From Candidatus Zixiibacteriota bacterium (lineage in GTDB: Bacteria > Zixibacteria > MSB-5A5 > GN15 > FEB-12), in assembly GCA_024278515.1 (NCBI GenBank), contig JAJRTA010000251.1, forward strand, positions 1 through 35,905: a DNA stretch of 35,905 nt, given 5' to 3'. Positions 2,534-23,497 of the stretch are shown here, piece by piece. The notes below the pieces were generated by a model that did no database searches, was not told the DNA's origin, and saw only the letters and a program-made list of their open reading frames with translations. The position numbers were made by a program, and so were the translations under genes. The first letter of the stretch is position 1; the number at the start of each line of letters is the position of its first letter.

Positions 2534-2965
2534 ATGGGCAAGACTCTTTTTCTGGTATCTGTCGTCATTATTTTGTTGTTTGTTTCAGTCGGCGCACAGC
2601 AGTCGGGCAACACTCCCACAAAGAAGTTCACTAAAGAGACGGCGTCCGATCTGACTGTCGAGGCCGCTCTGTGTACCTCGGTAGTCGACCGGGAACCGGT
2701 GGGCAAAGGGACCACATTCAGCTCCGATATCGGCGGGCTTTACCTCTGGAGTAAGGTTATGGGCGCGACCGATACGACCGTTGTCGAACATTTGTGGTAC
2801 TACAAAGGGGTTGAGATGGCATCGGTCAAACTGCCGGTTAAGTCTAAATCCTGGAGAACCTGGAGCAGAAAAAGAATTCTTCCTGAATGGACCGGCGCCT
2901 GGGAAGTCAAGATTGTCGATGCTGACTGGCGTGTTCTTAAAACTATTTCGTTTACTATCGAGTAG
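2534..2965 (+). CDS. secreted DUF2914 domain protein
   Basis: Small exported protein of 143 residues. Residues 1-21 form a signal peptide (MGKTLFLVSVVIILLFVSVGA). The rest matches DUF2914: two conserved segments, LYLWSKVMGATD and VVEHLWYYKGVEMASVKLPVKS, followed by a WRTWSRKRILPEWTGAWEVKIVD stretch in which the aromatic residues and the final strand are typical. In other proteins this domain is usually predicted to be an all-beta extracytoplasmic module; no enzymatic role is known. The start is well supported by AAAGGAGG (2520-2527), six bases before the ATG. The following gene lies 194 bp downstream on the same strand; co-transcription is possible but not shown. Confidence 0.85.
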   Translation: MGKTLFLVSVVIILLFVSVGAQQSGNTPTKKFTKETASDLTVEAALCTSVVDREPVGKGTTFSSDIGGLYLWSKVMGATDTTVVEHLWYYKGVEMASVKLPVKSKSWRTWSRKRILPEWTGAWEVKIVDADWRVLKTISFTIE

Positions 2966-3159: not shown

Positions 3160-4242
3160 TTGTATACCCGAATCGTAATAAAACTTCTGCTGGTCGTTGT
3201 TTTGATCGGTTCTGTACCGACGGCGTCGGCCAAACGTATTTGTGATCAGTGCAAACAGGTGATTACCGGGGGACGGAGTATTGAAGTCGATGGACGGTTT
3301 TTTCACACCGAACATTTTAATTGCGGCTATTGCTCGAAGTCGATCGGCTCACAGAAATTTTACGAACATGAGGGAGCATATTACGACAGCGACTGCTATG
3401 CCGAGCATATTGCAACTCGTTGCCGGTACTGTAACAAACCAATCCTTTCAAATTATGTCAAAGCTGAAGGCGAACCGTACCATCATGATTGCTATCTCGA
3501 TCATGTCGCGGTGCGCTGTGTTTTCTGCGGTATACCGATCAGCGACCAGTACTATACCGATCCGTTCGGTAATGTCTGCTGCTCGGAGCATTACGAAAAT
3601 GCCCCGGTATGTTTTTCCTGCAAACGGTTCCTGTACGGAGGGAAGGACAGCCCGCACCGGAAGTATGCCGATGGCCGTCTTATCTGCGGAAGCTGCCTTG
3701 CAACAGCGGTGACCGGCCTTGATGAAGCCGAGAAGATATTGCGGGAAATAAAAGAGCAGCTTAACGAGGCAGGTATCTCGATCAGCCCCAATGTTGATAT
3801 CAGCCTTGTCACGCTTGAACAGTTGCACGAGGTGTCGGATGAAGTACTTCCCGATCAACTGGGGGTGGCTGTCTTTGAGGAACAACGCTGGGATAATGGT
3901 GAAGTGGCCGCCCGGGATTACCGGATCCATGTCCTCGTCGGACTGCCTGAATATCATTTTCGGTCGGTTATCGCACACGAACTTATGCATGTCTGGATAT
4001 TCAGGAACGGACAGGCGGAAACTATCGACCCTCTGTTGTCCGAGGGAAGCTGTAACTACTCGGCCTACCTGATACTGCTCAGAGACAAATCGGAAGTGGC
4101 GGGCCTTATGCGTGAGCGTATGTTAGCTGATGATGATTCGGTTTACGGTGAAGGATTTCGCAAAGTAAAAGAATATGTGGAAAGGGTGGGCACAAACCGC
4201 TGGCTTGCCTACCTGAGAGACAATTCCCGTCCGCCGTGGTAA
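3160..4242 (+). CDS. secreted LIM-domain / DA1-like zinc metallopeptidase
   Basis: A 360-residue exported protein that combines LIM-type zinc modules with a DA1-like peptidase. Residues 1-24 are a signal peptide ending TASA. From 28 to 179 there are repeated C-x2-C knuckles (C28/C31, C55/C58, C88/C91, C120/C123, C151/C154, C176/C179) alternating with HFNC, DCYAEH, DCYLDH and CCSEH ligand sets, as in consecutive LIM fingers. A charged helical linker (about 187-205) precedes the peptidase domain: LGVAVFEEQ, the conserved VGLPEY, then AHELMHVWI with H273-E-L-M-H277, and a probable third zinc ligand E295 in LLSEGSCNYSAY. These match the DA1 C-terminal family, known mainly from plant DA1 growth-control peptidases. 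The catalytic residues are intact. The start is TTG at 3160; it is the only usable start after the upstream in-frame stop at 3121. The substrate is unknown. Confidence 0.88.
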   Translation: MYTRIVIKLLLVVVLIGSVPTASAKRICDQCKQVITGGRSIEVDGRFFHTEHFNCGYCSKSIGSQKFYEHEGAYYDSDCYAEHIATRCRYCNKPILSNYVKAEGEPYHHDCYLDHVAVRCVFCGIPISDQYYTDPFGNVCCSEHYENAPVCFSCKRFLYGGKDSPHRKYADGRLICGSCLATAVTGLDEAEKILREIKEQLNEAGISISPNVDISLVTLEQLHEVSDEVLPDQLGVAVFEEQRWDNGEVAARDYRIHVLVGLPEYHFRSVIAHELMHVWIFRNGQAETIDPLLSEGSCNYSAYLILLRDKSEVAGLMRERMLADDDSVYGEGFRKVKEYVERVGTNRWLAYLRDNSRPPW

Positions 4243-20807: not shown

Positions 20808-22715
20808 CTAACGGCTGTAAGTTGTTTCGAGATACTGTCGGGCCTGGCGTTGATGATAAGTTGCCGATGAAATCGCCAGCACCTGCGCGTAATGTTCTTT
20901 GGCCGCTTCTCTGTCACCTTTCAGGTCGGCCAGTTTTCCGAGATAAAGATGGGTCATGCCGAGGTAGAAAGGACGAGTTTCGAGAAAGAGCGCTCCCTTA
21001 AGATAACTCTCCGCCGCTTTATACTTATCGAGACCGAGATATGACATCCCGAGCCATAGATGGACGGTTGGTGCCGGACCGCCGGTTTGCAGCGATGCTT
21101 CCAGCGCGCGGATTGCCTGGATGAAATACTGCTCGGCCAGGGCCTGGTCACTCTTGTCGTCCGATTCGCGCAACAGCTCCGCCAGCACGATCATACTGCC
21201 CAGATCAGGCCCGCCCTTGGAGGGGTTTTCCATCACCACTTCCAACTGCTTTCGCGCCTGATCGATTTCTCCCCGATGAATATAGAGCATGGCAAGGTTG
21301 AACCGCACGCTTTGATCGGTCGAATCGAGATCAAAAGCGGTGAACAGATCTTTGGCCGCTTCGTCGTACAAACCGTTCATCATCCGGTAAGATCCAAGGG
21401 CCTTCCACTGGCGGGCCGAACTGCTTTCCAGTTGCACCAGTTGATACTGTACATCGGTGGCCGAGTAATAGTCACCGTTGTAGAAGCAGGCCCGTTTCAA
21501 AAGCGCCAGAAGTGCCAGCGAATCGGTATGGTTCTGAGCTTTTCCCACGGCCGCACGGGCATAACGGAGCATCAGCCGGTAATCGAACATTGCTTCGGCC
21601 AGTTCCGCGTGGTAAAGCAGGGCACTACCGTCGATTGTGGAAGTATCGACGAAATGCATCCAGTTTTTCTCCAGTTCCTCGATCGAACTTCCGAACTGTT
21701 CTTCAAGCACGTTGCGAAGATTGAGATCATCAGCCGCCCGGTAAAACTGTTTGAATCGGTTGAATCCGTACTCGTTGACAAGGTACATTACAAATGTGGC
21801 CGCCGTACGGTCGGCGATATACGGATCGGCCGTATAATACTGCCACGTGTCGAGAAATGTATCAAGCGGCAGGGCCAGTCCCCGATCGACAATTTCCTTC
21901 ATGTCAAAAATCGCCAGCGAAAGATAGTTGGCGAGTCCCTCGGACACAAACGGCGGAGCATAACCGTAATTGCGCAGGACTATAGTGTAGGATAAAATAA
22001 ACGGATCGGCGGTGTTCATCTCCTGAGTGAAAAGGGCATGAGCCGTGGCGCGTGTCGGATCAACAGCCATGGCAAACCGCTTGTCCCAGATCACCGACGG
22101 CACCAGGCAGGGGCATAGATACACTGAGTATTTACCCGGCAGGCTGAAATTGTAGAGGTCCTGGATACGATTGTAGTGTTCCTCAAGAATACCTTTGACG
22201 GTGGTCCAGTAGAAATCACCCAGTGAGTTCGGGACGTAATGGATATCAAGATGAGCCGACGGCTGTATGTTAAACGTTCCCTCTTCATGATGATCGAATT
22301 CGCAAATGACCGAGTCCGGCTCTATCTTCTTCAGGGGCACCAGCTCAAACAGGTACTTTGTTGAATTCTTACCCTCGATATCACTGAGCCGGGCGGGCAG
22401 ACCGTATTCGACCCGAAAGTTTCGCGAGTAGGTGTTGGCTCCGGGGCCGAGAGTTATCAGGTGCACGGTGAATTCACAGCCTGAGGTATCGGCGGCCTTG
22501 ATCTCTATATCCAGCGAAAACGTAAGTAAAAATCCGGAGGTCGTCGTCCCGATCAGAAAGCTGTTGGTATCGCTGAACAGCAGATGGTTGGCGCCGTTGT
22601 TCGGATCAGTCTGGTAGATATTGATTGCTCCTTCGATTCCCTCCGCCGAGCGAACAGGTAAAGCCAGCGAACCGAAAAGAGTAATAATCGAGCTTAGAAC
22701 AATAGCAATCTTCAT
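20808..22715 (-). CDS. secreted TPR protein with a degenerate gluzincin (MA-family) peptidase domain
   Basis: A 635-residue exported protein. Signal peptide 1-23 (MKIAIVLSSIITLFGSLALPVRS). About residues 155-330 resemble the MA-like gluzincin fold: LDIHYVPNSLGDFY, then PPFVSEGLANYLS (SEG at 258-260), where active relatives carry a zinc-binding HExxH about 15 residues earlier. Here that position reads LSYTI (241-245), so the zinc site is lost and the domain is probably non-catalytic. From about 370 to 630 it has five or more TPR-like helix pairs. Start at 22715 is preferred: AAGGTG lies just upstream and a signal peptide follows; an alternative ATG at 22769 overlaps the comB stop (TAATG). Likely a periplasmic binding or scaffold protein. 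Confidence 0.78.
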   Translation of the reverse strand: MKIAIVLSSIITLFGSLALPVRSAEGIEGAINIYQTDPNNGANHLLFSDTNSFLIGTTTSGFLLTFSLDIEIKAADTSGCEFTVHLITLGPGANTYSRNFRVEYGLPARLSDIEGKNSTKYLFELVPLKKIEPDSVICEFDHHEEGTFNIQPSAHLDIHYVPNSLGDFYWTTVKGILEEHYNRIQDLYNFSLPGKYSVYLCPCLVPSVIWDKRFAMAVDPTRATAHALFTQEMNTADPFILSYTIVLRNYGYAPPFVSEGLANYLSLAIFDMKEIVDRGLALPLDTFLDTWQYYTADPYIADRTAATFVMYLVNEYGFNRFKQFYRAADDLNLRNVLEEQFGSSIEELEKNWMHFVDTSTIDGSALLYHAELAEAMFDYRLMLRYARAAVGKAQNHTDSLALLALLKRACFYNGDYYSATDVQYQLVQLESSSARQWKALGSYRMMNGLYDEAAKDLFTAFDLDSTDQSVRFNLAMLYIHRGEIDQARKQLEVVMENPSKGGPDLGSMIVLAELLRESDDKSDQALAEQYFIQAIRALEASLQTGGPAPTVHLWLGMSYLGLDKYKAAESYLKGALFLETRPFYLGMTHLYLGKLADLKGDREAAKEHYAQVLAISSATYHQRQARQYLETTYSR

Positions 22716-22768
22716 TTGCACCTTATACCTTAAGAAAGCTGAAAAGACGACAACAGCCTTTTTACCCA

Positions 22769-23497
22769 TTACCGGTCGTCCGGAATTAATCGACCTTCAT
22801 GCAGAAACGGAAGAACCGGTATGGAGTCGGTGGCCGCCGCTACATCCAGATCATTTTCGAAACCAAGACGGCTGAGAAACCGGCCATGTTCACTCTGAGC
22901 AATCGTCTGTTTGATCGCGCTCTTGTTGCTGCGATAGAGCAACATAGCCAGTGATCCGGCGTCGTTCAACGTCAGTTTGATCTTCTTGTCGGTGGCCAGT
23001 AAATGCAGAAGCATCCCGCCGCAGATGGTGTCTTCGATAGAAAACTGTCCGCTCCGTCCGGCGCAAAATATCACCAGATCTCTCCCTTCCCTGGCCACCC
23101 GGTCAGCCACCTTCGAGATATTGGTCAGGCTGCACGACAAAGTCAGGGCGGCCCCGGTAGCTTTCAGAAATGCTTCCGTGCCGTTGGTCGTGGTCATCAC
23201 CACATATTTGCCGCCGACCGCTTCGGCGCTGAATTCCGACGGCGAGTTGCCCAGTTGAAAGTTCTCTATCCTGACCCCCTGACGCTCCCCGGCCAGCACG
23301 GCCATATCGGAGCCGATCCTGGTCCACATTTCAACCGCTTCACCCGGTCCCTCGGTCGGTATAACACCCCGGGCGCCGGCCGCCAGCGCGGCGCTGATAC
23401 AGGTAGTGCAGCGAAGAACATCTATCACCACGGCCGTTTTGTCGGTAATCTCTGAAGCGGCGGCAGGTGTGGGGGTCAGGAACAGTTGAACATTCAT
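22769..23497 (-). CDS. ComB-family 2-phosphosulfolactate phosphatase-like protein
   Basis: A 242-residue member of the ComB family, whose archaeal founders remove phosphate from 2-phosphosulfolactate in coenzyme M synthesis. Family signatures are VIDVLRCTTCISAALAAGARGV, LAGERQGVRIENFQLGNSP and MTTTNGTEAFLKA, and a CGGMLLHLL segment near the C-terminal half. The protein is full length. No comA or comC homologue lies nearby, so a role in coenzyme M synthesis is not implied; bacterial ComB proteins are of largely unknown function. Start ATG at 23497 follows the gcvT stop by 9 bp, and its stop is 53 bp before the chosen start of the TPR gene. Confidence 0.92.
   Translation of the reverse strand: MNVQLFLTPTPAAASEITDKTAVVIDVLRCTTCISAALAAGARGVIPTEGPGEAVEMWTRIGSDMAVLAGERQGVRIENFQLGNSPSEFSAEAVGGKYVVMTTTNGTEAFLKATGAALTLSCSLTNISKVADRVAREGRDLVIFCAGRSGQFSIEDTICGGMLLHLLATDKKIKLTLNDAGSLAMLLYRSNKSAIKQTIAQSEHGRFLSRLGFENDLDVAAATDSIPVLPFLHEGRLIPDDR

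Follow-up and report, generated by a model that had tools for sequence, protein, structure and literature searches.

Organ size in plants, crops included, is under the control of DA1. Prokaryotic LIM domains are said to have been predicted as partners of membrane-associated peptidases in the abstract of Burroughs, Iyer and Aravind 2011 (Mol Biosyst 7:2261). Plant DA1 is a latent peptidase in need of activation, in which the C274Y change in the LIM-like domain abolishes both ubiquitylation and peptidase activity and the change of HEMMH to AEMMA abolishes cleavage (PMC5322733), and its LIM and C-terminal parts bind the C-terminal region of the substrate WUS (PMC11143343). Dong et al. 2017, with reference to Burroughs et al. 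2011, point to a likeness between DA1 relatives and bacterial proteins of Roseiflexus that have LIM-like CxxC pairs (PMC5322733). We describe here a gene of this kind in a contig of Candidatus Zixiibacteriota bacterium (JAJRTA010000251.1, assembly GCA_024278515.1), of which the whole stretch of 35,905 nucleotides is referred to below as the window. The gene occupies an open reading frame (ORF) at 3160-4242 on the plus strand, without an in-frame stop, and its product is probably an extracytoplasmic, ubiquitin-independent DA1-type zinc metallopeptidase with a substrate-docking LIM array and a supporting or gating LIM-like module.

Both halves of the protein are recognized by Pfam above the curated cut-offs, LIM (PF00412) with E=2.1e-13 and 50.8 bits against a cut-off of 22.9, and DA1-like (PF12315) with E=3.2e-12 and 46.7 bits against a cut-off of 25. 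The LIM and DA1-like parts that had been proposed in a preliminary, sequence-only reading of the window, together with profile searches as the check, were thus both found, and the two profiles are significant in all 22 members of an alignment of the family. The DA1-like match comprises the active-site part of the profile (positions 82-130) and, in relatives, its C-terminal part (166-212), rather than all 213 positions. As in the plant DA1/DAR proteins (Arabidopsis DA1; PF12315), both Pfam models match and LIM, LIM-like and HExxH...E peptidase follow in the same order, the LIM and LIM-like modules standing directly N-terminal of the peptidase; the HExxH motif and a cysteine of the LIM-like part, both needed in DA1 (PMC5322733), are further points in common. 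The novelty that the earlier reading had implied for the fusion of LIM domain and peptidase was not upheld, because this layout is DA1's own and bacterial relatives have been published (PMC5322733): the protein is a new, well-kept member of a kind already known, and what is added here is the breadth and anatomy of that kind.

The main difference from plant DA1 lies ahead of the first zinc finger. The plant protein carries ubiquitin-interaction motifs in its N-terminal part, resides inside the cell and is switched on by ubiquitylation, whereas the bacterial protein has a signal peptide instead. No profile match to a ubiquitin-interaction motif was obtained in the 360-residue protein, and nothing but the signal peptide precedes the first LIM cysteine (residue 28), so that, with neither a match to such motifs nor space for them, we classify it as a DA1-type LIM peptidase and not as a ubiquitin-activated DA1. 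A further described group, the IrrE/PprI-type peptidases (M78), resembles the protein weakly and without significance in the region of HExxH (Pfam M78, E=0.005, under the cut-off); these proteins lack LIM domains and are intracellular regulators of the DNA-damage response. PprI is also the best fold match of the peptidase domain, at a non-significant E=0.18. No NCBIfam family scored over its cut-off.

The HELMH...SEG site noted in the earlier reading is where it had been placed, with HELMH at H273-H277 and SEG formed by S294, E295 and G296, so that the HExxH motif is accompanied by a distal glutamate. H273, E274, H277 and E295 are present in all 60 members of a wider alignment; the contig scan that supplied this wider set was seeded on the motifs AHELMH[VA]W and EG[ST]C and its ORF filter required HExxH, and the invariance of the active site in this set is therefore partly due to selection. 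The search of 61 genomes was run without a motif seed, and the ORFs that were subsequently aligned were selected with an HExxH filter, which every hit passed except one broken copy (G028:C72:13643-14807; L023, L025, L029), in which the gene is split across more than one frame, through either decay or sequencing error. From the motif, the catalytic zinc would be bound by H273, H277 and E295 and the water activated by E274, as in gluzincins. Structure prediction, another check that had been proposed, gave a confident AlphaFold model, with a mean predicted local distance difference test score of 92.6 for the whole chain and of 95.9 for the peptidase alone, the latter with a predicted template modelling score (pTM) of 0.91. 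In this model the HELMH helix (264-283) and the E295 helix (291-307) are consecutive, which is the placement that a gluzincin requires.

Five zinc modules, with ligands assigned by spacing, together occupy residues 28-179. The protein has 17 cysteines and six C-x2-C pairs, compared with 0.76 on average in shuffled versions of itself (maximum 6 in 20,000), in agreement with the at least five zinc knuckles counted previously. The first two modules form a canonical LIM domain both by profile score and by the double zinc-finger spacing C28 C31 H49 H52 C55 C58 D76 C79, and their junction, H-x2-H-F-x-C-x2-C, is also found in paxillin and PINCH. The modules differ in how well they are kept. C120, C123, C151, C154, C176 and C179, in modules 4 and 5, are retained in 60 of the 60 aligned relatives; module 1 is absent from 7 of them, module 2 from 16 and module 3 from about 9, and 5 sequences of the 22-member alignment have an incomplete N-terminal LIM or none. 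Modules 4 and 5 and the peptidase make up the whole of the smallest members (Spirochaetota L092, L094 and L100; Bacteroidales L105), which have no recognizable signal peptide. Since modules 4 and 5 and the active site are invariant and the N-terminal LIM is variable, it is the LIM-like part that constantly accompanies the peptidase; judged by this pattern of sequence conservation, the catalytic domain has the LIM-like pair as its obligatory companion, and the N-terminal LIM is an add-on. All LIM matches in the 61 related genomes fall inside ORFs of DA1-like peptidase genes, which ties the LIM domains of these bacteria to one exported peptidase.

The variability of the N-terminal LIM can also be read in another way, namely that the array serves localization or scaffolding, by binding to itself or to an envelope protein, and the peptidase cuts whatever is near. 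LIM domains generally bind protein partners, and a tether would be expected to differ in number and to be missing in some relatives, as is observed; against this stands the binding of the substrate WUS by the LIM and C-terminal region of plant DA1, an argument by analogy only. We consider this possible, although somewhat unlikely. A role of the LIM array as a substrate-recognition device at the cell surface is plausible.

The export proposed in the earlier reading is supported by the leader itself and by the relatives. Inspection and hydropathy reveal the features of a Sec substrate, that is, a positively charged start, a hydrophobic core and an AxA site. Comparable leaders are present in all 22 aligned relatives, and a crude rule (a charged start and a hydrophobic core ahead of the first zinc cysteine) detects a signal peptide in 57 of 70 distinct members, several of the failures being incomplete contigs or artefacts of the rule. 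Since such a peptide is present in most relatives, the protein is likely to be located outside the cytoplasm, in the periplasm or on the outer surface. The assignment of the start codon is in keeping with this leader: no alternative ATG, GTG or TTG lies further 5' in frame within 50 codons of the first zinc cysteine, the leader before that cysteine has 27 residues, compared with 26 from the ATG of the nearest homologue, and its length is consistent with the leaders of the relatives in the alignment.

Taken together, these features suggest the following mechanism. The protein would be exported through Sec and processed by signal peptidase on the C-terminal side of A24, the N-terminal LIM modules would fold round structural zinc and dock protein substrates, and the last, always-kept LIM-like modules would pack on the peptidase domain, steadying or gating it, a role that we infer from their conservation and by analogy with plant DA1. 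The outcome would be limited cleavage of envelope proteins. Control by ubiquitin is unlikely because ubiquitin-interaction motifs are absent and the predicted site is extracytoplasmic, and the peptidase would thus act without it. Rather than general proteolysis of partners, catalysis might serve to mature the protein itself or a single dedicated partner, the LIM-like modules acting as a latch. The latency of plant DA1, which requires activation (PMC5322733), and the retention of modules 4 and 5 in every aligned relative speak for such a latch, but no partner gene is conserved beside the peptidase gene at 57 distinct loci, and we regard this explanation as unlikely.

Several observations weigh against the mechanism outlined above. 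About six members (one cyanobacterial copy, L084, Spirochaetota L092, L094 and L100, Bacteroidales L105 and Fusobacteria L107) seem truly to be without a signal peptide, so that export does not extend to every member of the family. The whole-chain pTM is only 0.77, which makes it less sure how the LIM array sits with respect to the peptidase; the geometry of the zinc site, which the structure check was also meant to address, and the packing of the domains are predicted, as is the peptidase activity of every bacterial member. The neighbouring genes at the 57 loci give no hint of a substrate.

The gene is carried by 23 of the 61 genomes searched, the host's own included. DA1-like matches were detected in 40 of 132 genomes of the phylum Zixibacteria versus none of 14 control genomes, and within the host genus the distribution is patchy (two of seven genomes). 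The named relatives closest in sequence are Zixibacteria, and the wider contig scan yielded 64 loci in Zixibacteria, Marinimicrobia, Calditrichota, Ignavibacteria, Krumholzibacteria, Eisenbacteria, Bacteroidota, Spirochaetota, Fusobacteria, Cyanobacteria and others. LIM domains being regarded as mostly eukaryotic, it might be supposed that bacteria acquired a plant DA1 gene recently, or that the sequence is a contaminant. As a recent event, this is refuted by the spread through the phylum, by the occurrence of relatives in about ten other bacterial phyla at 24-50% identity, by a 60-member tree in which members of one phylum group together beyond chance, by the bacterial flanking genes and by the nearest relative, which belongs to the same genus and is 50% identical; we consider it extremely improbable. 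A phage or plasmid origin was likewise rejected, no relative having been found in viral contigs or on plasmids.

In a broader scenario, to which we give rather little credence, DA1-type LIM peptidases arose in bacteria as envelope peptidases with LIM-like gating that did not involve ubiquitin, and plants later adopted the enzyme and added the ubiquitin-interaction motifs. If this were true, the exported bacterial members would represent a minimal system in which to study the switching of this enzyme by its LIM-like module. Sequence and fold searches of the PDB gave no significant match for the peptidase domain, and the structure-database matches of the protein that reach significance are all LIM proteins. 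By these searches the DA1-like peptidase domain seems to lack a solved relative. The small exported members could supply one, and a compact, confidently modelled bacterial member without need of ubiquitin would be convenient both for this and for testing LIM-like control of activity.

Table 1. Coordinates of the peptidase gene and of the features of its product in the window
Feature	Position	Strand	Details and basis
Gene for exported (predicted) LIM/DA1-like metallopeptidase	3160..4242	+	360 aa, TTG start, TAA stop; 22-member alignment
Signal peptide, residues 1-24 (MYTRIVIKLLLVVVLIGSVPTASA)	3160..3231	+	Predicted cut after ASA, without lipobox; sequence inspection, hydropathy
LIM domain 1 (modules 1 and 2), residues 28-82	3241..3405	+	C28 C31 H49 H52 / C55 C58 D76 C79; Pfam LIM
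LIM-like pair (modules 3 and 4), residues 88-147	3421..3600	+	C88 C91 H108 C111 / C120 C123 C141 H144; second Pfam LIM stretch
Last zinc module (module 5), residues 151-179	3610..3696	+	C151 C154 C176 C179; spacing, alignment
DA1-like peptidase domain, residues 182-360	3703..4239	+	Pfam DA1-like; AlphaFold
HELMH (273-277)	3976..3990	+	Predicted zinc ligands H273, H277; predicted catalytic base E274; invariant in 22-member alignment
E295 (SEG motif)	4042..4044	+	Predicted third zinc ligand; invariant in 22- and 60-member alignments
C298	4051..4053	+	Near-invariant (22/22; 53/60, Ala in 7); one helical turn past E295
Y329-G330-E331-G332 motif	4144..4155	+	Y329, G330, G332 in 60/60

Among the further conserved residues of the peptidase domain, Y329 is a candidate for an oxyanion or substrate-binding role. 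The protein (window 4234-4239) and its relatives (L001-L022) terminate at almost the same position and have an aromatic C-terminus, with W in 8 of the 22 related-genome loci (mostly PPW) and GY in 9 (mostly FPxGY); such an end could anchor the chain in the fold or act as a self-inhibiting tail.

Clustering of ORFs and comparison of the immediate neighbours at the 57 distinct loci revealed no conserved neighbour beyond the local synteny of close relatives; an operon partner was rejected for want of a common adjacent gene, and the peptidase gene seems to work alone. In the window, a gene for a DUF2914 protein with a hydrophobic leader (2534-2965, plus strand; Pfam 6.1e-18) lies 198 bases upstream on the same strand and is not recurrent beside the peptidase gene in relatives. 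At two other loci (L045 and L066), the peptidase gene follows 25-35 bases after the end of a low-molecular-weight-phosphatase/ArsC-like gene, and ArsR-like and ACR3-like genes are also in the vicinity (all names assigned by eye); this is probably local synteny. Elsewhere in the window (20808-22769, minus strand) is the gene for a 653-residue TPR-repeat protein, which had no Pfam peptidase match at E 0.01 and whose N-terminal half contains a segment, FVSEGLANYLSLAIFD, resembling the second half of a gluzincin site.
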